Source: a virus
Length of the DNA stretch: 60,723 nt
IMG/VR virus record: IMGVR_UViG_3300027963_000084
Coordinates: 1 to 60,723 of that record
Strand: one strand, 5' to 3'
Part shown: positions 1,114-17,895 of the stretch, in pieces
How positions within the stretch are numbered: position 1 is the first letter of the stretch
Layout: each line of letters begins with the position of its first letter
Notes under the pieces: generated by a model
What the model was told of the DNA's origin: nothing
The model's database searches: none
What the model saw: the letters and a program-made list of their open reading frames with translations, nothing else
Position numbers and translations under genes: made by a program

Positions 1114-1914
1114 TTATGGCGCAAGGTAAGTGATGTAGTCCGGTGACGTGGACACTGTGAGAGTTAGCGGAACGTCAACTTCTTCATACGTTAACTTTAT
1201 CTCACAATCATCTCCAAGCTCTGCTTTGGTGACGGTTGACACAGGACAAAATCCGCTAATAGACACACTAGTGATAACTCGCGCGCGGGCTGGCCGACCG
1301 TTCCGACCACCACCCCCGCCACCACCACCTCCGAAAATAGGCATAATCGGCTGAAGGTTAGGGAAGCTAATCGTCGGCGCGCTGACGGCACCACCGCCGC
1401 CGCCAATCTCGCTTGGACCAGACTCGGGAGGCGATCCGCCGTTGATGGTCGTTACGTTGATGTTTTGCGTGGTTATGTTGTTTGTTGTCAGGTTCTGATA
1501 CGTGGCGTTGTTAGCAGTGGTGTTATCAAAGAAACTGTTTCCACCCACGTTGAACGTAGGCCCGCCGTAGTAGCTGTTGGCTGCAAACTCTTGGTTGGTG
1601 GGAAATGAAAACTGCGCGCCTCCGTAGTTGGTGGTGTACCAGTTGCCGTTTGTGTACCCGCCAATGTTGGGAGCTTCGTAGTAGTATTGGGATGAGTTTT
1701 GAGGAAAGACGTTTTGGTATAACTGCGGATTCCACATGCCCGGTGCCATAACGCCATTGCGATTTGTGGGCTGCGGAGGCGATAGGGTTACCGCTCCACG
1801 GTGAACGAGAGATTGCTGACAGTTTCCCAGAGACTGGACAAGAGCTTTGACTGCAACGTCTGGAAGATAGCCACCGACAGCGTTGAAGAGAGAGGGTGCG
1901 GATTGAGTAAACAT
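1114..1914 (-). CDS. Asn/Thr- and Gly-rich putative tail fibre or spike protein
   Basis: 266 residues starting at the ATG at 1914, which overlaps the stop of the upstream gene (TGATG). The N-terminus (QSAPSLFNAVGGYLPD) is followed by a Tyr/Asn/Gly-rich stretch, an Asn/Thr-rich stretch of short beta-like repeats (TTNNITTQNINVTT) and an uninterrupted run of nine glycines before a basic RPARAR segment. The last 60 residues look globular. Low-complexity, beta-prone composition and a place directly after the nozzle-like gene suggest a structural tail protein. No catalytic motif is visible. The coding assignment is firm; the role comes from composition and position. Confidence 0.75.
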   Translation of the reverse strand: MFTQSAPSLFNAVGGYLPDVAVKALVQSLGNCQQSLVHRGAVTLSPPQPTNRNGVMAPGMWNPQLYQNVFPQNSSQYYYEAPNIGGYTNGNWYTTNYGGAQFSFPTNQEFAANSYYGGPTFNVGGNSFFDNTTANNATYQNLTTNNITTQNINVTTINGGSPPESGPSEIGGGGGAVSAPTISFPNLQPIMPIFGGGGGGGGGRNGRPARARVITSVSISGFCPVSTVTKAELGDDCEIKLTYEEVDVPLTLTVSTSPDYITYLAP

Positions 1915-4529
1915 CAACCAACTCCTTCGATTGTGAGTCCGAACAAGCGGACGGCATCTCCAGATAGCGTTGCGGCCTGAGTACCACCGACGGCTATTGC
2001 GACATGTCTGTCGCCGCCCACGTTCTTGTCGTCTCTGTGCCCAGAGAAATAGGCACGCGCAAACCCGTTTGCCGATCCAAGTGCAGATCGGGCAGTCTTC
2101 ATATCCAGCACTGCGGCGGTTCCACCAGCAGTGGACGTGAAGCCACCACGGTCACCTGCTATCGCGGCGGGCCGGGGCGTGGATGAGTTGTTGTAGTGCA
2201 ATCGCACCTGGAGGGCAGACGAATTGACGGTCGGGCTGTACAGCACACCAACCGACCTGCTCCCGCCGTCAGGGGCAGGGTCTGTCAGGGTCATATTGCC
2301 GGTGCGGAACTCATAAGGGATGGGAGCGCCCTGCAGATCGGTGTAGCCACCGTAATACACAAACATCCCGCCGCCCGTTCCCCATAGGGTGTCTTGCCGA
2401 CCAGAAATGTTTCCAGATGTGGAGGATGTTATTGGAGTGGCATACCTCTCCTCCCACCAAGCCTTTGTGGCCACGCCGTAGCACAAGGCCCGTACCGGAA
2501 GGGTTTCACCAGACCGGCAGTAGAAGAACCGCACTATCTGCGTGGCGTGATCAGCGCGGACATGGAACGATGCAGATGCTTGGAAGTCGATTACACGCTC
2601 GCGCCAGTAGTTGTCCACGGGAATAGACACTGGGTCAGCTTGGTTGCCGTCAAAGGCATACAGCCCATAACTGTCAACGATATACGCGGTGCCGGAAAGG
2701 ACATCCCAGCACTGCGAATTCAGAAGTCCGCGATAGGCCACAAGGGTTATCGACGCATCGATGACCGGCTGAGCAACATACTGCAAGCGATAGAGGTGGC
2801 GAGACTGTGCAATTGCCAGCATTGACCCAAGCGGGATGAGGCTGACGATTGCGTCCGGGTCTGCGACGTTCTCCTGCAAAACCATCTCGTTGCTCTCTGG
2901 GACAGCTTCTGGTTCGTCCACTTCGCTGTACAGCATTGAGTTGGGCCGGTCGCCGGATGTGTCCACCGCGTACCACGCACGGTCTTGGAACATTGTCGCA
3001 ACGGCAAAGTTCCCTGACGGGGGCGTAAAGCGGCGGGCGTTGATCTGACCGTTGGGCAGCGTGACGGGCATCAGACCGTACTGAGATCGCCCCGTGTCTT
3101 TGAGGTCGTCGTCAGACAGCGTGTCCACATACGAACCAAAGAAATCTGGGGAGGATCGCTGAATTGTTGCAACGCGGAACAGGATCACAGACTGATCGGC
3201 AGTAGTACGCCAAAGCTCCATGGCGGTTACGCGGTCCTCCAGACCGCTATGGGAAAAGTTCCAAGTCATCGACCCCGCGCCAGTCGTAGCCGCCACTTCA
3301 ACAAGGTCCGATATTGAGGAAGGCATAGGCCCGCCACGGCTTTCGGACGTGGAATCCAAGTAGCGAACGCAGCACTGGTATGTGCCGCTAACCGGCTCTG
3401 AGAGCGTGGCTGTAGCTTTCGCCGTGGAGTCGTTGATGTATGCCGTTGGTATGCCGCCGTATTCGCCGCCCGCGTACACCGTCGCCCCTGTCAGTCTTCC
3501 ACCAGATATCACCGCAGTGGCGGCTGCGCCGGACCCAAAAGAATCTTGGGCTTCTGGGAGAAACGTGATGATGGGCACGGATCGATAGCCAGACCCACCG
3601 TTTGTGACGGTGAGGGCTTTAACGCGGTACAGCATGTCAACCGAAACCTCCGCCCCACTGCCGACTCCAACCAGCGTAGCAGTCACGCCGCTGGTTGTGG
3701 CACCCGTGCCAGCCGATAACAGCTTCACTTCCGTGACCTTGCCGCCAGAAACTGTGACGGTTGCCGCCGCTTTAATTAGTCCTTGGGCGCTGGAGAACAC
3801 CAACTGTGGGGCCGACGTGTAGTTAGTGCCCTGCGAGGTTATCGATATTGTGTCTACGCGGCCCAGTACGGCTACAGACAAAGTGGCACCACCAGCGATC
3901 CCACCGGACAAAGCGACGGTGGGCGTGTCTTGGTAGCCCGCACCACCATCCGTGACTTCGATCTGGGTTACACGTCCATTGAGGAGGGATGCCTTGGCAG
4001 CTGCCGCGCGTTCTGGAGTGCCGCCAGTGAATACAACTGATGGCACGTTGTTGTATCCGCCTCCGTAACTCACCAACTGGACGGCGCTCACGTACCGGCT
4101 TGTGGAGGATGAGCCCACCGTGATCGTCGGCCCAACGGCTGGCTTAGTTATTCCAAGTTTCTCCACGGAACCAGAGTCGCCGTTCCACCGCATGCCACGC
4201 CCCATGCCGTCAACACCGTACATGTCGTTGCCGCGCCCCTTAAAGAAGGACATGGGCCGCAGCGATCCGGTGTAGGCAAACGCACTGGCAGAAGCACCAG
4301 TGCCTCCACCGCCGGAAAATTGGATTGTTGGCGATCCGGTGTAGCCGGTTCCTCCAGCAGTGACAACGACAGACTCCACGGCAGTGCCCGCCATATGGGC
4401 CACGGCAGCTGCGCCAGTCCCGCCCCCGCCGACAACAGCGACGGTTGGCTGGGAGGTGTAGCTTGCGCCACCAGTAAGGACAGAAATGCTGACGACAGAC
4501 CCAGGCTGGCGGGTGGAGATGACGGTCAT
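1914..4529 (-). CDS. Tail nozzle-like protein with Gly-rich repeats (C-terminal part of a split nozzle?)
   Basis: 871 residues. The start chosen is the ATG at 4529, which overlaps the preceding stop (ATGA). Residues 1-370 hold about eight degenerate modules of the form V-x-x-GGxGYxxxPTV followed by GxGAxAxA, a repeat common in phage tail proteins. The rest resembles the beta-propeller body of podovirus tail-tube B / nozzle proteins: a segment like FQDRAWYAVDTSGD, then LYSEVDEPEAVPE, then a 'sites of contact' block around SLIPLGSMLAIAQSRHLYRL. The usual N-terminal segment of that family is instead found at the start of the upstream gene. It would form the distal channel of a short tail. The nozzle call rests on motif similarity read by eye. 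Confidence 0.65.
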   Translation of the reverse strand: MTVISTRQPGSVVSISVLTGGASYTSQPTVAVVGGGGTGAAAVAHMAGTAVESVVVTAGGTGYTGSPTIQFSGGGGTGASASAFAYTGSLRPMSFFKGRGNDMYGVDGMGRGMRWNGDSGSVEKLGITKPAVGPTITVGSSSTSRYVSAVQLVSYGGGYNNVPSVVFTGGTPERAAAAKASLLNGRVTQIEVTDGGAGYQDTPTVALSGGIAGGATLSVAVLGRVDTISITSQGTNYTSAPQLVFSSAQGLIKAAATVTVSGGKVTEVKLLSAGTGATTSGVTATLVGVGSGAEVSVDMLYRVKALTVTNGGSGYRSVPIITFLPEAQDSFGSGAAATAVISGGRLTGATVYAGGEYGGIPTAYINDSTAKATATLSEPVSGTYQCCVRYLDSTSESRGGPMPSSISDLVEVAATTGAGSMTWNFSHSGLEDRVTAMELWRTTADQSVILFRVATIQRSSPDFFGSYVDTLSDDDLKDTGRSQYGLMPVTLPNGQINARRFTPPSGNFAVATMFQDRAWYAVDTSGDRPNSMLYSEVDEPEAVPESNEMVLQENVADPDAIVSLIPLGSMLAIAQSRHLYRLQYVAQPVIDASITLVAYRGLLNSQCWDVLSGTAYIVDSYGLYAFDGNQADPVSIPVDNYWRERVIDFQASASFHVRADHATQIVRFFYCRSGETLPVRALCYGVATKAWWEERYATPITSSTSGNISGRQDTLWGTGGGMFVYYGGYTDLQGAPIPYEFRTGNMTLTDPAPDGGSRSVGVLYSPTVNSSALQVRLHYNNSSTPRPAAIAGDRGGFTSTAGGTAAVLDMKTARSALGSANGFARAYFSGHRDDKNVGGDRHVAIAVGGTQAATLSGDAVRLFGLTIEGVG

Positions 4530-7500
4530 ACTGTGGGATACCAGAAGGGGGAATTCGGGGTTTGGAATGGCACCCAATACCTACCCAGAGCGGTCACGCG
4601 GAGCAGCGGAATTCTGAATGACGCAAACGATTGTGCGGAGCTTGGGTATGACGTGGTGCCATCGCCAGCGCCAGACGAAAAGCCGGACTTAAATGAAGCC
4701 TGCGCACCGTTGATGAACACGGTGTAGCCACCGCTACCATTTGACGGGTATAGCTCCATTGCAATATGCGCCCACTGCCCGCGCAATGAACTTAGACTGA
4801 CGGTGCTTGTGATATACGGGTTGCTTGTCGCAAACACTGCAGTTGATGCTATGCGAGTAAAAACCAAATCCCCACTGACGAGTGCAACTTTCATTACCGA
4901 TGACACAAACGATGATCCAGCCGAGAAACTACCGGATTGCACTTGCATTACATCATCGTTGGTGCCCGTATCGGGGATAAACATCCACCACTCCACGCAC
5001 TGAGCGCTCACCTTGGAAACGTCACTAGGAGCGGATGCGCCGGTAGTCAGGTTGTATGCAAAATCAACATAACCATATTTCCAAGAACGACCAAAACGGT
5101 CGGAAGAAGCTGCGGTGTCACCCAAGGAAAGCGTCGATGATGTGAGCGAACTATCAGACGCGCGGGTCACAAGCCTCTGACTGTTAGCGTCCCACAAAAA
5201 GCACACGCGGCTCCAATATGGGTCGGAAGTGCTGCCAGTCGATATCCCGCTGGTTGTCACGTAGTCATTCAGAGCGGTTCCAGACGAATCCATCAACCGC
5301 GTTCTGACGCTGAACGGACTAGAAGGCGGAGGCGATATCCAGTAACGACTTCGCCCTGTGTAGTAGGGAGTCCATGTGACTGCGGACGGTGCGGTCGGAT
5401 AGGCGGCAAACGAACTGCCGCGCTTGGTAATCGCCGTCCAGGTTGCGCCCGAGTCCAAGCTGTACTGGCCGTCGATGTAGGACACCGTTGGACAGCCCTT
5501 GGTCGGCAGGTTCACGGTCAATGCAACATTGCCATCCAATGTCAGTGTTTCGGTGACTGTGTGCGGGCCGGTAGAACCGGAGGCAAATGGCGTGGACAAA
5601 GCGGACGAAACGGTGGATGAGCCAGTGCCAGCAAAATTTGTCAGCGACACGTTCCAGCGCCCCTGTGATTCCCCTCCGTAACATGCCGGTACCGTGATAG
5701 TGCGAGCCGAAAGATCCAGCAACGCATTTGGTATTTGATTGGCAGTAGCATTTCCGGTCCATACCCCAGATATGTAATAACCATACCACACCGAGGCACC
5801 GGATATTGCAGCGCCGCCATCATTTTGGGTAGTCCAAGACAGCGTGACCGTACCATCGGATGCGGTGGCTGTTAGGGCCGAGGTAATGGACGGTGCGGTT
5901 GCAATGCGTCCAGATGCAGGGCTAGTGCTATACGGACCAGTGCCTACAGTGGATATAGCAGCTACGCGGTAGTAGTATGTCGTTGTGGCATTAAGCCCAG
6001 TAATTGTGGCCGTGGTTGTTGTGCTTGTGGTTTCGGCATACACAGTCCATGGGCCAGACGAGCTTGTGCCGTACTGGATGAGGTAGTCTGTGATCCGCGA
6101 TCCGTAGGAGTTTGGAGCAGTCCAAGACAGCGTGAGAGTGGTGTCCGTAAGGCTGGTGGCATATCCAGCCGACAGGGTTGGAGTGCCCACGGCAGCGGGA
6201 ACCTGACCGACGACTACACTGGCCGACTCTGTGCTGTAGCTGCCTGTGCCGACAGAGTTCACCGCCGCCACGCGGAAGTAATAGGTGTAACCGTTTGTCA
6301 GGCCCGAAATGGTGTACTCCAGCACATTGCCCACCGTTCCATAGGTGGTGTAGGAGGAGGTGGTGGAACGGCGATACTGCAGGACATAGCCGGTGACTGC
6401 CGACCCGCCGTCATCTGAAGGAGCGGTCCAGTTGGTGAACATCTGCGTGTTGCCACCGCTTACCAGCGCGTTTATTGGCGCTCCTGGTGGGCCGACTGGC
6501 GTTACCGCGGCGCTCACTGTGCTGTAGTTTCCAGTGCCCACAGCGCTGACGGCGGCCACGCGGAAAATATAAGACGTGCCATTTGTCAGGCCCGTCACGT
6601 TTGTTTGAAGAACAGTCGAAGTTCCATCCGTAAAAGTAGTCCACGTCGAACCAGCGTTTGAAGAATACTGAACCACATAGTCTGTGATGACGCTGCCGCC
6701 ACTGTCGGATGGAGCAGTCCATCTCACGGTCACGTAAGCGTTGTTTGCTGTGCCGATAACGCTTGTCGGGGCTAGCGGGACGGTCTGCGGTGTCACTGAC
6801 GATGATGTGACATACGCGCTTGCGCCTTCAGAATTAACCGTAGCAACACGGAACGTGTAGGCGGTTCCGTTCGTCAACCCTGTGGCAGTGTAGGACGTTG
6901 TGGTGCTGGCGCTCTTGGTGATTGTGGAATACGCCCCACCGGCAACGGACACCTGGATCTGGTAGTCGGTGATTGCAGCCCCGCCAGTGCTTGCCGGTGC
7001 CGTCCAAGACAACGCCGCTTGCGTGTTCCCTACGGAGACGGTCAGGTTTGTTGGTGCCCCGGCGAGGGTGCGCGGAGTCACGTTGCCTGTCGAAACGGAA
7101 TACGGACCAGCCCCAACTGAATTGCTGGCCGATACGCGGAACTGATAGGCAGTCCCGTTTGTCAGCCCAGTTACCGTGTAGTTTGTATTGGTGTTCGTCC
7201 CATCCGACAGCGTTGTCCACGTAGCCCCAGAGTCTACGGATCTCTGGATGGTGTAGTCCGTTAGGCCAGACACGTTGTTGGCGGCGGGTGCCTGCCACTG
7301 CAACTGCACCTGAGTGTTGCCGTAGGTCGCCGTCAGGCTTGCCACTTGGTCGGGAACACCAATCGGGTACACGGGGGTCAAATAAGTTGTGTACGCACTG
7401 GTTCCTGCGGAGTTCTTTGCAGCCACGCGGAAGACATAAGCCTGACCGTTTGTCAGGCCAGATACGTTTGTGGATGTTGCTGTGGATGTGCCGTCCGCAA

Positions 7501-11841: not shown

Positions 11842-12371
11842 ACCCCACGCCCCTTTGGCCGATAGGCATGCTTCTCAATTACTCGCTCGCGGAGATCCGC
11901 AGTTTTGGCAGACGGCGTTAGCCGTTTCTCACGGGCGATCTCTTCCCTGAGAATCTTGTCGCTGATCAGCTTTCGCTTTGGTGCTGCGGGGCCGGGGTCA
12001 TAGTTCACCGTGCCGCTGACATGGAGGCGACGGGCTTGGGCAACTTTGAGGATCTCGTCATTGCTAGACACCCATGCCTTGGGATCACGCCAGCCACGCT
12101 TGTCAGCCAATCCGCCCACGTAGTATTTGCCAGAGATGCTTACACCGGCCTTCGTCGCCTCGGCCACAACGTACTTGGCCTGACGCTCTGGCATGTCGTC
12201 CAGCTGCTGGTTGTTCATCCGGCCTTCCATAAATGCACGGTCTGTACCGGAAGTTCCCGGGGCGACCTGCATCGCCACCATGGTCGCCCACTTCTCACCG
12301 TAGGGCAGGGCACGCTTGTACGTGGCGATGGCTTCTTCGCCAGCGCGCTTAACTTCAACCGGGATTTCCAT
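11838..12371 (-). CDS. Unknown protein downstream of portal
   Basis: 177 residues from the ATG at 12371, chosen because AAGGA precedes it; upstream codons overlap the portal gene and are Arg-rich noise. The protein is charged and mostly helical, with a central GKYYVGGLADKRGWRDPKAW segment and a Lys/Arg-rich C-terminus. It overlaps the end of the portal gene by 17 nt and the next fibre gene by 4 nt. In this position phages often carry a head-completion or assembly protein, but no family is recognised. Confidence 0.65.
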   Translation of the reverse strand: MEIPVEVKRAGEEAIATYKRALPYGEKWATMVAMQVAPGTSGTDRAFMEGRMNNQQLDDMPERQAKYVVAEATKAGVSISGKYYVGGLADKRGWRDPKAWVSSNDEILKVAQARRLHVSGTVNYDPGPAAPKRKLISDKILREEIAREKRLTPSAKTADLRERVIEKHAYRPKGRGV

Positions 12372-14361
12372 TTGGCGGTCCTTGCGGTGGGGGCTGCGGC
12401 GGTCCTCCCTGTGGCGGCGCACCAGGGGGAGGCGGAGGAGGAGGCGGAACCATATAGCGGCTCACGTCCACGTTTAGTGCCTTGCCCCAGTCCTCCAACA
12501 AGGCATTGAATAGCTCTGGCCGACCGGCTTGTAGCATGCCCTGACTGACAGGAGCGAGGATCTGCATTGCGTTGGTGATGTTCTCAACGCGGGTTGCGTT
12601 GTTTGGCTTCTTCACCGAACCGGCTTCAACGCGGTACGAATACTCGCGCACCACCGACTCCGGGTCTTCGCCCTGCACATGCATCTGCCACGCTTGCGCA
12701 GCCATTGGCCCCAGCATCGGAGCAACGTCCTGCGGGCCAATCAACCACCGCGCCAACAGCGCTTCCTTGCGGGCACAGAGCGACAGCGCGTCTTCCAAGA
12801 TGTTTGCATAATCGTCGGGCCTGACCGAAATTTGCTCCGCTTTCACCTGCGCTTCTGCAGCTGACCGGAACTGATTCCTGGTCATACCATAAATGAGTTC
12901 TGTCAAACCCACGCGGCGGTCGAAAAGCGCGGTGACCTCTGAGATAATCTGATACATGTCGGACGTGACACCGGGCATCTGGAAGACCGATATCACATCG
13001 TTGACAGACCGACCAACTGCCTCGGCAATTTCTACGATCTTAAAGCCGCCTTCATCCTTTTCCAAAATCTTAGCTTTTAGGTCTGGGTCTGCAGATTTCG
13101 CTACACCAATCAGCACCTGTGCGCTGGTGGCAATGCGCGTAGCAAGGAAGCTCATCGCCCAATTAATAAATCGAAGCTCACCAATACCGGGCCGGATCAG
13201 ACTGATTGGCCAGCTGTAACCGGGCTTGCCATGCAGGGAGTACAATGTGAACGGCCAGCCATTCGGCTCAGCCCAAAAGGGGATCGGCCATTGCGATGCC
13301 ATAAACATCGCCTGCGACACACCCGTATCGTCCACTTCGTCCTTCAGCAACTCTTCCGGCATGTTCAAAGGGTGGTCCACGCCTTCTGCCACAACGATGT
13401 AGCAGTTGGGTCCGAACGCATCAAACTTGCCGCGCAGGTCTTTGTCGGCATTCTTCAGCCGGTCACCAAACCCCGTCTTAGAATAAATCTCCCAGTAGAT
13501 GATCATATCGTTGGTCTTGCCCAACTTGCGCTTGTACTCAAAGCCGCGCTCGTTGTTGTCACCACGGGAAGCGTAGCTCTCCAAATGACCTTTCAGATCC
13601 TCACGGTTCAGACCGAACTTTGCAGCTACCTCATCGACTGGCTGCACTCGCTTGCGAGCGGCCCAGCGGATATCAGAAAAGTCGTCCGCATCGGGATCCC
13701 AGACTAGGTTGTCGATGGTGTCGTAGAAGGAACCCGCCATCTTTGTCTGTGAGCCTGGGGCGGAATAAAGCTCATGCCACCAGACACCAGCACCCTTAAT
13801 GAACGCTTCTTCAACCACCTTGCGGGAGTGGCCTTTGAGGTCCAGTTCGTTGGGGGTGTAGTTCAGATAGTCTTCCAAGAGGCGGGAGACGAGCTTTCGC
13901 TTCTCCAGCATTTCCTGCTGCTGCTGGAGTCCCTGCTGGTACATCTGGACCCCGGGATCGGGCATCATCACCGGCTGGCCATCGGGGCCGATGATGGGCT
14001 GACCGTCTGGCCCCATTGCTGGAACCGGGGGCTGTGGCTGAATGCCAAGCAGCGCCGGTCCAATGATGGGGTACTCCTTGGGGGTAACGGCCCGGTTGGG
14101 GTTGCGGTGATGGATGACTGCCGTGAAGAGCCGGACTGCTTCCCAAACACGGTTGACCTGCATGCGAAACGCAGGTGGGGTCATACCCTTGTTGTAGCCG
14201 CGCTCGCCCCGGGCATACCCGTCCTTCCACATAAAGTCCGGGTCACCCGCAAAGAAGTTCATCGCCTCGTCACCGTCTTCGGTGAACGGCTTCTTATGAG
14301 ACTGGGCCTGCTTAATGCATTCCAGCCAGCGGGCTACGATGGGGCGAAGCGGCTTTTCCAT
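12355..14361 (-). CDS. Portal protein
   Basis: 668 residues, a usual size for P22-type podovirus portals. The opening (ARWLECIKQAQSHKKPFTED, then NFFAGDPDFMW), the central dimerising core (WWHELYSAPG, YDTIDNLVWDPDADD, RFINWAMSFLATRIA) and the Gln-rich helix before it match that family. A proline/glycine-rich tail (PPPPPPPPGAPPQGG) closes the protein. Twelve copies would form the DNA channel at one capsid vertex and dock the terminase and tail adaptor. It lies after the large terminase gene with one small gene between. SD TAGGAG lies upstream of the ATG. The family call is strong. Confidence 0.9.
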   Translation of the reverse strand: MEKPLRPIVARWLECIKQAQSHKKPFTEDGDEAMNFFAGDPDFMWKDGYARGERGYNKGMTPPAFRMQVNRVWEAVRLFTAVIHHRNPNRAVTPKEYPIIGPALLGIQPQPPVPAMGPDGQPIIGPDGQPVMMPDPGVQMYQQGLQQQQEMLEKRKLVSRLLEDYLNYTPNELDLKGHSRKVVEEAFIKGAGVWWHELYSAPGSQTKMAGSFYDTIDNLVWDPDADDFSDIRWAARKRVQPVDEVAAKFGLNREDLKGHLESYASRGDNNERGFEYKRKLGKTNDMIIYWEIYSKTGFGDRLKNADKDLRGKFDAFGPNCYIVVAEGVDHPLNMPEELLKDEVDDTGVSQAMFMASQWPIPFWAEPNGWPFTLYSLHGKPGYSWPISLIRPGIGELRFINWAMSFLATRIATSAQVLIGVAKSADPDLKAKILEKDEGGFKIVEIAEAVGRSVNDVISVFQMPGVTSDMYQIISEVTALFDRRVGLTELIYGMTRNQFRSAAEAQVKAEQISVRPDDYANILEDALSLCARKEALLARWLIGPQDVAPMLGPMAAQAWQMHVQGEDPESVVREYSYRVEAGSVKKPNNATRVENITNAMQILAPVSQGMLQAGRPELFNALLEDWGKALNVDVSRYMVPPPPPPPPGAPPQGGPPQPPPQGPPNGNPG

Positions 14362-14384: not shown

Positions 14385-14702
14385 CTACTTACCCCTACGG
14401 GATTCCAGATCGGCCACCTTCCGCTCCAGAACAGCCACTTTCTCGCTGAGAATGGCGTTCTTCTGAGGCTTGTGTTCCCAGAACCCGTAATCGCCCCACG
14501 CCGGGAAGTCGTTCACGCCCGGGTCGGTGGTGTGGTGGACCGACTGCTTCTCAACCCCGCCGTACCCCGGGGCGACCGCCCACAGCGTTAGGGTCCGCGA
14601 GGCCGCTTTCGTCACCATAGCCGGGACAACATCCGCGTCTTTGTGGGCACGGAACAAAACCCAGTCACCCACCTCGGCGGTAGGCATTACATAATCACTC
14701 AT
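14385..14702 (-). CDS. Small protein between terminase and portal
   Basis: 105 residues. The N-terminal half (VGDWVLFRAHKDADVVPAMV) looks like a small beta-barrel. The C-terminal 25 residues (ILSEKVAVLERKVADLESR) form a heptad-like coiled coil that would oligomerise the protein. It overlaps the terminase stop by 4 nt. The position suggests an assembly or virion accessory protein; no named family was recognised. Confidence 0.65.
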   Translation of the reverse strand: MSDYVMPTAEVGDWVLFRAHKDADVVPAMVTKAASRTLTLWAVAPGYGGVEKQSVHHTTDPGVNDFPAWGDYGFWEHKPQKNAILSEKVAVLERKVADLESRRGK

Positions 14703-17263
14703 CGTCGGCTCCCCATTGGTCCCAAGATAATGCAGTTGTCTTCGGACGACTGCGACCTGCGGCGTTTATCCGCCAGGTATTTCACCCACCACGGATCTGG
14801 ACCGTAGGTTTTCGGTGGCGGGTGGTATTTCGGCTCATAGGCGCAGAGGTACTCCACGCACTGACAGGCGTGGACTTCCCCTCGGCTTTGCGGTTCGTCG
14901 GTCACGTATATCTGACCATTGACGGTGGTCGTCTTTTTGCGGTAGCGGCGGATCTCCCGCATCAGATTGGGGCAGGTGCCCTCCAAGAACTTCAGCCTGG
15001 TGGTCCCGTCCCCACGGACGTGGAGCATCTGCCGGACGAGCGCGGTGCGGGCCGGAATGTCGTCGGACCCAGGCATAAACCCAAACCCGCTGATCTGGGC
15101 GCGGATGTTCCGCTTCTTTAGCTCTTCAGAATAAAGCTCATGCGGTAGCCGACCAGACCCCAAGTCACGGAGCATGCCGCCGTGCATGTCCATTATGAAG
15201 TTGTAGTAATGCTGTCCATCGGCCTTCTGGGCGAACTGCTCGCCAAAGATGAGAGAGTTTGCCTGCCGGATATAGAGTTCGTCGTAGATCAGAAGAAACT
15301 TCTCGTCTGGCGGCACTGCTCCAAATATGCAGGCAAGGACCGTGTGGCCCGGGTCAATTGCTACGTACTTCGTCCAGTCTGATGGAACTTGCCCAGCGGG
15401 TAGATCCTCTCGCCGCAGTACATGCACCGCTGGATTGAACGTCGGGTACATAAGCGTGGACTCTGTGGTGAACTCGCCTTCGGCGCGCATCCGAAGCTCG
15501 TCCATCCCCAAGGCAGACCACCGTTCAATGTTCTTCTTCTTTTCCTCTTGGTCAATGTGGGCGTTATCCAAAAACCGCAGGGTGAACTTCTTAATGATTG
15601 GGTTCTCACGCCCCTCTTCCTCTGCCTTGTCCGCACGTTCACACAACCCCAGCAGCGCATCGTTTTGAGAATGTGGCATAGCCGACCAAACAAACCGGCC
15701 TTTGCGGTCGGCAAGCCTCGCCTGCATTTCTCCCACCCATCGCTCGTTGTTAATATCCTCATCAATATGTACCAAGTCGGCTTGGAAACCTTGTGGGGGT
15801 TCGCCCTCTGAAGAGAAGCAATTAATAGTCCAACCGTTAGTTAGCTCGCACTTATTGAGGTAACTGGCGTTCTTCAGCACCCAACTCATATCCTTTATCA
15901 TCCGGGGCGGGATGAGGGGCGGAGCCGGTTTCGCCTTGGAGACATCGTCTTGCCCAGGCCGGAAAGCTCTCCACTGACCTGTCGTCTCGTCCTTTATCAT
16001 TTTGAACGCGCCCGCCCGAAACAGCATCGGCACCACCACCAGTCCTATGTGGGGCCAGTTCCGGCCTACTATCACCAGATTCCCGCCCTCCTTCGGATAT
16101 TTCCCGTATGGGTCTTGTCCGGTGGCTGCGCGTGCATCCTCTATGAAACTTGCGGCGCTCTTGCCCGAGTTGTGGTTGGGCACCCCGGCGATGAGGTAGT
16201 TGTGATAACCGAACACCTCTATGTCCCATATTTCTCCTTGCCCTAAATACTCGCAGGAGGTAATATACACATGTTCATTACCCCCCGAAGGAGCATTGCA
16301 TGGGTCGTCACAATAAGATCGACTGGCCGGTTGAGCAGTTAAGAACGTGGTATGAGGTTGAGCGCAAAACAGTGGTTCAGATAGGTGAACTGATGGGCGT
16401 GAGTTCAAAGGCTGTGAATAAGGCTTGCAAGCGTCTTGGCTTTCAGATGCGCCGCCGGGGGCCGAAAAATGGCGCGGAACATCCTTGCTGGAAGGGTGGC
16501 CGCACAGTGGACAAGGGCGGATACATTCTTCTGTATGTGCCAGATCACCCAAACTGCAACAGCAACGGCTATGTGCGAGAGCATCGGATCGTTTGCGAAC
16601 GTGTCCTTGGACGGCCTTTGTTGCCGTCTGAAGTAGTTCATCACAAGAACGACGATCCTTCCGATAATAGGCCCGAGAACCTCCAACTGTACGACTCAAA
16701 CGCAGATCACCTTCGGGAGACACTTGCAGGAAAATGCCCTCAGTGGAGCGAGGAAGGGAAGCAGCGAATTCTGGAGTCAATAAACTCCAGATCGACTTCC
16801 ATTGACCGGAGGCAGCTAGCACAAGGTGGTCGCGCGTACAACGAATCTCCCCTCCATTGCTCAGGCGAAACGCATAAAGGTCGCCCCAGCCCTTAACGAA
16901 GGGCGCTGTTGCCTGCCCGCCAACAACCTCCCCTTTACACAAAGCCTCCACCCAGAAGCCGCTATTGATCTCGCTGACAGTGCGGTGTTTTTGGGTCAGC
17001 GGGTCATAGATTTTTTGGTCGCCAGCCAAGCACCGATTGCCGCCGATCAGAAGGCGTTCGCTCGCCATGCACTTGTGGAACTCCTCCTGCTTGGGCATGG
17101 GGACATACAGACGCAGAGCTTCGATCCTGCGCTCTGCCAGTTCAATCTGCACATCCCGCAGCTGATTCAACGCATGCTGCGTGATGCCTTGGACCGCAGG
17201 CTCGTCAGGTGGGGGCGGCGCTGGGATCTGTGGGTGTTTTCTCATATTCTCCGCAGTAGTCAC
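14699..17263 (-). CDS. terL: Terminase large subunit (DNA-packaging ATPase/nuclease) interrupted by an intein
   Basis: 854 residues before splicing, about 566 after. The Walker A loop is split: GGNR lies at residues 74-77 and SGKS at 366-369, with a 288-residue intein between. Joined, they read GGNRSGKS, a normal packaging P-loop. Walker B is the hydrophobic stretch ending in Asp501-Glu502 (LVHIDED). The RNase H-like nuclease domain begins near YVAIDPGHT with Asp637; a later MDMHGG segment is probably part of the same site. The enzyme would translocate DNA into the prohead and cut it. Splicing is required for function because the ATP-binding loop is otherwise destroyed. It overlaps the upstream gene by 4 nt (ATGA). 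The family call is firm. Confidence 0.93.
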   Translation of the reverse strand: MTTAENMRKHPQIPAPPPPDEPAVQGITQHALNQLRDVQIELAERRIEALRLYVPMPKQEEFHKCMASERLLIGGNRCLAGDQKIYDPLTQKHRTVSEINSGFWVEALCKGEVVGGQATAPFVKGWGDLYAFRLSNGGEIRCTRDHLVLAASGQWKSIWSLLTPEFAASLPRSTEGIFLQVSPEGDLRLSRTVGGSRAYYRKDRRSCDELLQTATKAVQGHVRKRSDALAHSRCCCSLGDLAHTEECIRPCPLCGHPSSKDVPRHFSAPGGASESQDACKPYSQPLNSRPSVHLSEPLFCAQPHTTFLTAQPASRSYCDDPCNAPSGGNEHVYITSCEYLGQGEIWDIEVFGYHNYLIAGVPNHNSGKSAASFIEDARAATGQDPYGKYPKEGGNLVIVGRNWPHIGLVVVPMLFRAGAFKMIKDETTGQWRAFRPGQDDVSKAKPAPPLIPPRMIKDMSWVLKNASYLNKCELTNGWTINCFSSEGEPPQGFQADLVHIDEDINNERWVGEMQARLADRKGRFVWSAMPHSQNDALLGLCERADKAEEEGRENPIIKKFTLRFLDNAHIDQEEKKKNIERWSALGMDELRMRAEGEFTTESTLMYPTFNPAVHVLRREDLPAGQVPSDWTKYVAIDPGHTVLACIFGAVPPDEKFLLIYDELYIRQANSLIFGEQFAQKADGQHYYNFIMDMHGGMLRDLGSGRLPHELYSEELKKRNIRAQISGFGFMPGSDDIPARTALVRQMLHVRGDGTTRLKFLEGTCPNLMREIRRYRKKTTTVNGQIYVTDEPQSRGEVHACQCVEYLCAYEPKYHPPPKTYGPDPWWVKYLADKRRRSQSSEDNCIILGPMGSRR
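16238..16266 (+). promoter_or_regulatory. Promoter-like pair before the antisense HNH gene
   Basis: TTGCCC at 16238-16243 and TAATAT at 16261-16266 are separated by 17 nt, a sigma-70-type spacing. Transcription starting near 16273 would leave a short leader containing the AAGGAG ribosome site before the ATG at 16300. All surrounding genes read the other way, so the endonuclease needs its own plus-strand promoter. The match is 4/6 in each hexamer, so the call is tentative. Confidence 0.35.
16300..16896 (+). CDS. HNH homing-endonuclease-type protein nested antisense in the intein
   Basis: 198 residues on the strand opposite to terminase. ATG at 16300 is preceded by AAGGAG with about 7 nt spacing, and a TTGCCC-N17-TAATAT promoter-like pair lies just upstream. 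Residues 20-55 form a helix-turn-helix-like segment (TVVQIGELMGVSSKAVNKAC). Residues 58-145 are a classic HNH_3 domain: EHPCWKGG, GGYILLYVPDHPN, NGYVREHRIVCE, VHHKNDD and DNRPENLQL. The last 50 residues overlap intein block-B DNA and look less constrained. It would cut intein-free terminase genes and spread the element. Being coded antisense inside the host intein is highly unusual, since intein endonucleases are normally in frame. Confidence 0.88.
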   Translation: MGRHNKIDWPVEQLRTWYEVERKTVVQIGELMGVSSKAVNKACKRLGFQMRRRGPKNGAEHPCWKGGRTVDKGGYILLYVPDHPNCNSNGYVREHRIVCERVLGRPLLPSEVVHHKNDDPSDNRPENLQLYDSNADHLRETLAGKCPQWSEEGKQRILESINSRSTSIDRRQLAQGGRAYNESPLHCSGETHKGRPSP

Positions 17264-17895
17264 TCAGCATTGTCGTCGGCTGAGTGTCCTCTTCCTGCGT
17301 CACTTGCGGTGGGTAGCGGTGGCACTTCCCGAACCGGGACTTCGGTCCCACTGGCTCCCACCATCGGCATGTTTGACACTCCATGCTGTATCTCCTTCAA
17401 AGGGATTCCTTGGACCGTGATCGTTGTGGCCGCTTCCAAAATGCGGTCGCGTAGCTCGTCTTCCAACTCCTCTTCAGTCCAAGCTGTGAGGGGTTTCTTG
17501 GCTCCGCCCATCGCTGTGTTGGCAGAGACGAGCCGGACTACAGTGTCCAGCATCTTGGTGCGGAACGCGCCGCCGGAAGGGGAGTCGAACAGCTGCTTCA
17601 TATAGCAGTTGGCAAACCCTCTCACCCCGCCGAAGTATTCCATCAGAACCTCCAAGAGTTCTGACGAATGCGGGATGTTGGCTCCGCCGATGCGGGCCGA
17701 AGCGATGAACAGATCCACCGCGCCCTTCTCAATCTCCGCGAGTTTCTTGTTGCCCTTTTTCTTACGAACCTTCTTCTCATGGGCATTGCGGCACTTGCGA
17801 CACCGCGCGTGGAACCCATCCTTTGACTTATGCCAGTTCGCCTGGGTCAACTCATAAGAGTGACCGCACTGGATGCATGCCTTGTATTCAGCCAA
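17260..17895 (-). CDS. Putative terminase small subunit with zinc ribbon
   Basis: 211 residues. The N-terminus has a four-Cys zinc-ribbon pattern (CIQCGHSYELTQANW, then ARCRKCRNAHEKK) followed by a Lys-rich patch, suggesting nucleic-acid binding. The middle is helical and the last 40 residues are Pro/acidic and probably disordered. It lies directly before the large terminase with an ATGA overlap, the normal place for the DNA-recognition subunit. The family is not a clear match, so the role comes from position and the DNA-binding features. Confidence 0.6.
   Translation of the reverse strand: MAEYKACIQCGHSYELTQANWHKSKDGFHARCRKCRNAHEKKVRKKKGNKKLAEIEKGAVDLFIASARIGGANIPHSSELLEVLMEYFGGVRGFANCYMKQLFDSPSGGAFRTKMLDTVVRLVSANTAMGGAKKPLTAWTEEELEDELRDRILEAATTITVQGIPLKEIQHGVSNMPMVGASGTEVPVREVPPLPTASDAGRGHSADDNAE

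Follow-up and report, generated by a model that had tools for sequence, protein, structure and literature searches.

The large terminase (TerL) gene of the window, by which we mean the complete 60,723 bases of the IMG/VR virus record IMGVR_UViG_3300027963_000084, very probably carries a mobile intein in its Walker A loop that harbors, on the opposite strand, a homing-endonuclease gene of the HNH type, with selection keeping both the HNH protein functional and the linker of the intein free of stop codons. The TerL ORF (14699-17263, minus strand), which sits upstream of the portal gene (12355-14361), encodes 854 amino acids in a single continuous frame and not in two ORFs, as a fractured gene with a split intein would. 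A sequencing error was ruled out, since IMG/VR contig L001 encodes proteins identical to those of the window, and relatives at many levels of divergence show the arrangement too. A tblastn search of isolate phages with the window TerL yielded no useful relative. Directly upstream of terL, the ORF at 17260-17895 (minus strand) gave a short endonuclease VII-like PHROG match and a weak DUF6510 match, and possibly encodes a small zinc-ribbon protein.

The terminase intein and its antisense HNH gene

The intein occupies 16169-17032 on the minus strand, corresponding to TerL residues 78-365, and was inserted between GGNR and SGKS of the Walker A loop. Its 288 residues run from C1 to a terminal HN and comprise, all on the minus strand, block A (residues 1-13; 16994-17032) with the catalytic C1, block B (TRDH; 16817-16861), a block F region (16196-16237), and block G (16169-16189), which ends in GVPNHN and is followed by Ser as the +1 residue of the C-extein. 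C1 was invariant in alignment A2; H69 of block B, D270 and V273 of block F, and N288 were likewise invariant, H287 was nearly so, and the +1 residue was Ser or Thr across relatives. AlphaFold2 modeled residues 1-92 and 252-288 with a pLDDT of ~90 and residues 100-251 (16280-16735, minus strand) mostly below 50, with ~30 over most of this stretch. When the model was searched with Foldseek, the top PDB matches were the mini-inteins NpuDnaB, Mtu RecA, and Npu DnaE, with TM-scores on the target of 0.78-0.81 (NpuDnaB, 0.79; Mtu RecA, 0.78), as expected of a HINT fold. The conserved blocks and the modeled fold strongly support a genuine intein with a HINT fold, which would be competent for splicing. 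A first-pass annotation had already placed an intein of this length with blocks A, B, F, and G in the Walker A loop and noted the lack of an in-frame endonuclease between blocks B and F; our coordinates and fold model agree with the former, and the latter stretch proved to be a predicted disordered linker instead of a conventional endonuclease domain.

It is very unlikely that the insert does not splice and is tolerated solely as a carrier of the HNH gene, like the ShiLan elements known in methylases (PMC11855218). Pfam Intein_splicing (PF14890) did match the window intein at only 22.8 bits (E 8.9e-5), under the curated cut-off of 35.8 bits, which would suit such a reading, and the TIGR intein_Nterm match was also weak and under its cut-off; three relatives with an antisense HNH exceeded the PF14890 cut-off (L120, 53.7 bits; L163, 59.0 bits; L180, 48.3 bits). 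A non-splicing insert is, however, difficult to reconcile with the conservation of all four blocks including C1, H69, H287/N288, and the +1 Ser, or with a confident HINT fold that matches solved mini-inteins. Furthermore, TerL is an essential ATPase, and an insert left unspliced in its Walker A loop should be lethal.

Wholly within this intein, the plus strand carries a complete HNH gene (16300-16896; 198 amino acids), whose wobble position faces codon position 2 of the intein. The first-pass annotation had described both this gene and the minus strand open throughout it, and the ORF coordinates and the Pfam HNH_3 match (E=1.2e-10, 41.3 bits, against a cut-off of 24.8) bear this out; PHROG matches to HNH proteins were strong as well. 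The catalytic residues H114, H115, N123, N127, and H137 (16639-16710, plus strand) were invariant in 18 aligned relatives, free-standing HNHs among them. In the AlphaFold2 model, residues ~4 to 167 were folded and residues 168-195 unfolded, and residues 11-45 (16330-16434, plus strand) formed a three-helix, helix-turn-helix-like part, which also gave a weak Pfam HTH_6 match (E=0.035). The best PDB fold match was the homing endonuclease I-HmuI, with a probability of 0.92 but an E value of 0.18; like the window protein, I-HmuI combines an HNH with DNA-binding helices. The host element of I-HmuI is a group I intron, not an intein.

A Shine-Dalgarno-like AAGGAG, which had been pointed out previously, was found at 16288-16293 (plus strand), 6 nt before the HNH ATG, and 21 of the 23 loci of the window intein lineage had a GGAG-type site ahead of the ATG. 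For this lineage, such conservation supports a separate translation start for the HNH; other lineages are less clear. A promoter-like pair had also been proposed for the gene. It was not supported, because our promoter scan detected no sigma-70-type site upstream of the HNH gene and one inside the gene only.

Selection on the two overlapping frames

Across the 70 intein-associated loci, the intein frame contained 0 stops over 12,369 HNH codons, where ~330 would be expected at the rate of 2.66 per 100 codons obtained with uniform synonymous codon choice. By comparison, 69 relatives without a detected intein had 3.97 stops per 100 codons in the same antisense phase, and for the intein-associated genes the two remaining antisense phases held 2.64 and 4.36 per 100. 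Synonymous permutation of each gene predicted 1.5-9 antisense stops, whereas 0 were observed in every locus; for several single loci, 0 of 2,000 permutations were open. In some single loci with strong codon bias, up to 5-18% of permutations left the frame open, which would fit an open frame arising by accident from codon bias or a GC-rich coding sequence. Set against the comparison rates, however, the complete lack of stops over all codons and loci refutes a chance open frame, the probability of which is practically negligible. Zero stops in that phase were also found in three "free" loci, one being L131 (see below). A low stop density was considered as the reason for the phase choice and was unconvincing, as free-standing relatives had 3.96 versus 3.97 stops per 100 in antisense phases 0 and 1.

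Substitution counts that account for the overlap gave an omega of 0.14-0.28 for the HNH, indicating purifying selection, and of 0.50-0.96 for the intein. At 16313-16745, it was mostly the HNH wobble positions that varied; the situation was reversed at 16817-16889, where intein third positions (block B) were the most variable. Between Pseudoalteromonas phage PHS3 and Pectobacterium phage Sabo, the HNH was 51% identical and the intein ends 54% and 50%, with 28% for the linker. The amino acid sequence of the intein within 16313-16745 is close to free, and avoiding stops is the main demand on it. The maps of folded and unfolded regions in the two models were complementary, and therefore the disordered part of each protein faces the folded part of the other: the intein linker lies opposite the folded HNH domain, and the disordered C-terminal tail of the HNH lies opposite block B. 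Constraint appears to be divided between the strands and not doubled, with true dual use confined to the overlap ends. The strong dual constraint claimed earlier thus holds at these ends but not across 16313-16745. An additional effect, whereby HNH codon choice would lower the hydrophobicity of the linker, was only slight (0.237 versus 0.250; free-standing relatives, 0.317 versus 0.322).

The first-pass annotation had named relatives with a broken plus-strand frame and a conserved minus strand as evidence against two functional genes. Early HNH stops did occur in L012, L018, and L023, which could suggest that the HNH is a decaying relic and the intein alone is functional. None of these stops came before approximately codon 178, so that all were confined to the unfolded C-terminal tail that faces block B, and the catalytic frame was unbroken in the loci examined. 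A relic would also be at odds with the low HNH omega and the invariant catalytic residues. Finally, inteins were collected without using the HNH: a scan with only the N-terminal splicing domain of the lineage, for which a closer intein alignment was used, A2 being too diverse, retrieved 23 loci that were exactly the HNH-bearing contigs L001-L023, and no intein of the lineage without an HNH was seen among these 23 matches. A decaying HNH is therefore highly improbable, and comparison of the sequences strongly supports that both frames are kept open by selection.

Mobility and distribution

The comparison of relatives with and without the intein, which had been suggested as a check, revealed many terminases up to 95% identical in the exteins that lacked both the intein and the HNH, and an uninterrupted GGN[R/M]SGK[S/T] site occurred in 42 intein-free loci. 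Invaded and empty alleles interleaved in the extein tree, with 7 changes of state, of which well-supported branches required at least 4. The window TerL, for which the identical L001 stood in, was sister to the empty alleles L042 and L080, the latter from the same metagenome as L001. Divergence at 4-fold sites between L007 and L009 was 0.45 for the extein, 0.12 for the intein, and 0.03 for the HNH (p=9e-5, uncorrected, for a pair picked as an extreme of ~190 comparisons), a pattern indicating a recent transfer. L005 and L011 showed the reverse, with 29% for the extein and 64% for the intein (p=1e-3, also uncorrected and picked as an extreme of ~190 comparisons). The element appears to be mobile, because the extein tree mixes invaded and empty alleles and the L007 and L009 inteins are far closer than their exteins; the mosaic tree and the incongruent divergences are marks expected of homing and point indirectly to movement into empty alleles.

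Phage HNH proteins near terminases take part in packaging, according to Kala et al. as cited in PMC10448857, and the HNH could accordingly be a terminase partner at cos sites that lies antisense in terL by happenstance. Its absence at the terL site of the closely identical intein-free terminases does not fit such a role, and neither do its joint movement with the intein, its presence in helicase inteins (see below), and a best fold match that is a homing endonuclease. We thus regard a packaging HNH as quite unlikely and favor a mobile intein with an antisense homing endonuclease. In the mechanism we propose, the minus strand encodes the terminase plus the intein, the two HINT halves of which would fold together, self-excise, and restore TerL, as the conserved blocks and fold suggest. 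The linker between blocks B and F would be the antisense reading of the HNH homing-endonuclease gene, whose protein would be made from its own start and ribosome site off an antisense transcript. The empty sites, mosaic distribution, and horizontal transfer suggest that the HNH would cut intein-free terL alleles near the GGNR-SGKS junction and that recombination repair would copy the entire intein with both genes into the break. Selection preserves the HNH function together with a stop-free antisense linker.

Scanning IMG/VR with the window HNH gave 36 relatives. In 33 of these (L001-L033), a single long ORF ran antisense across the HNH homology region in the same phase, and mapping of the boundaries placed this region wholly inside an intein; of the remainder, L035 was truncated, and L034 and L036 were free-standing. 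A wider search of viral and genome contigs added 104 loci, ~35 with the same arrangement. Among 139 scored HNH loci, 70 were intein-associated, all antisense in one phase. Overall, the arrangement was found in ~80 phage and bacterial genomes besides the window, including nine phages with a recorded host (see below); most of the loci were on metagenomic contigs. Bacterial genomes with an antisense-HNH intein included Acidobacteria, a deltaproteobacterial MAG, Methylococcaceae, and Polaromonas. For the most part, the host genes encoded terminases, of families that included Terminase_3, Terminase_6, and some lacking a Pfam name, and non-terminase hosts were a strawberry-notch-type helicase (Polaromonas, 2,774-amino-acid ORF) and an SNF2-type helicase (Acidobacteria). 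In a quick tree of the antisense HNHs, whose support was weak overall, 10 changes were counted, at least 2 of them forced by well-supported branches. On balance, it seems reasonably likely that these elements form a broad, long-lived class of inteins with the endonuclease gene antisense in the splicing element, always in one phase and possibly from a single ancient nesting, whose spread has taken in several families of terminases, helicases of the SNF2 and strawberry-notch types, and both phages and bacterial genomes. With the genes on separate strands, expression of the nuclease may be timed differently from that of the late terminase gene.

Several loci showed further features. In L131 (Nitrospira MAG), a DNA methylase ORF (1523-4489, minus strand) contained an antisense HNH (3157-3423, plus strand) in the same phase and no recognizable intein, which makes it an antisense counterpart to the ShiLan insertions. 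The L005 TerL (1365-4943, minus strand) carried the antisense-HNH intein at Walker A and, farther downstream, another intein (CFDDQTEV...GNC) whose large in-frame insert resembled a LAGLIDADG domain. The terminase ORFs of L153 (1163-4927, minus strand) and L033 (1116-4910, minus strand) had an additional intein-like insert, and that of L153 gave a weak in-frame LAGLIDADG_3 match. Polaromonas sp. CG9_12 held two copies in one genome, L122 and L125; the L125 copy looked decayed, as its intein N match and antisense frame were in separate ORFs. Distant HNH relatives (34-40% identical) also occurred near terL in related phages, some without an intein (L007/L008 1480-1920, minus strand; L047 6220-6582; L078 6197-6571), and might be a source or competitors.

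Nine phages with a recorded host carried the arrangement, belonging to the Pectobacterium/Dickeya group plus Pseudoalteromonas phage PHS3. The TerL intein with an opposing HNH was common to Pectobacterium phages Sabo, Ymer, Abuela, Koroua, Amona, Pappous, and Taid and Dickeya phage Setonix; Sabo was analyzed in full, and matches to the others covered 98-100% of both proteins. The records of Sabo and Abuela list the TerL ORF as a hypothetical protein and leave the HNH unannotated, and the main text of the genus paper, which used TerL for phylogeny, is silent on the intein and the HNH (PMC11445585). In PHS3 (KX912252; L246, 1652-3778), the HNH was annotated by the depositors and TerL only from a Met, a false start, inside the C-terminal part of the intein, whereas the frame of 708 codons was intact from the N-extein through the intein to the C-extein. 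The annotations examined thus gave one protein or the other, never both in full.

Relation to known elements and significance

Like conventional homing inteins, the element combines a HINT splicing domain with a homing endonuclease between blocks B and F; in those inteins the excised protein includes the endonuclease as one of its domains, whereas the window encodes it as a protein of its own, on the opposite strand. To our knowledge, known intein homing endonucleases are all in frame. In the fractured genes that Dassa and colleagues reportedly described in 2009 (a study cited in PMC10448857), the host gene and a split intein are in halves with a free homing-endonuclease gene between them. The window element resembles these in having an endonuclease separate from the intein and differs in its unbroken host ORF, which overlaps the endonuclease gene. 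Inteins in the ATPase domain of mycobacteriophage TerL, which have spread among phages (mBio 2016, PMC5050341), carry LAGLIDADG endonucleases in frame between blocks B and F, in contrast to the antisense HNH of the window; the L005 terL holds both kinds, an antisense-HNH intein and one with a large in-frame insert.

The closest parallel was the HNH of ShiLan and Pacc40 gp60, an out-of-frame ORF in a methylase insertion that is translated from the host transcript (Arsenault, Gosselin, and Gogarten, 2025, PMC11855218). There too, an HNH gene is hidden in an insertion that is open in the host frame, the host-frame product is disordered and the HNH-frame product folded, and a mosaic distribution indicates homing. 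Those elements have no splicing domains and no detectable ribosome-binding site, and antisense coding is unmentioned (PMC11855218), whereas the window HNH is antisense, lies inside a real intein, and has a Shine-Dalgarno site. Our searches of an open-access literature collection turned up no intein described as containing an antisense endonuclease gene. By function the element is likely a homing intein, although its architecture is not conventional.

Since annotation tends to retain a single strand, many genomes may contain nucleases of this kind that have been overlooked. In PHS3, splicing, cutting, and antisense expression can all be tested directly. The overlap is an antisense one in which both products are recognizable by homology and open to selection tests, and it provides a natural example of one gene dictating a long linker in the protein of another. 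The arrangement would represent a new mobile-intein architecture, in which a nuclease and a splicing element share the same DNA on opposite strands.
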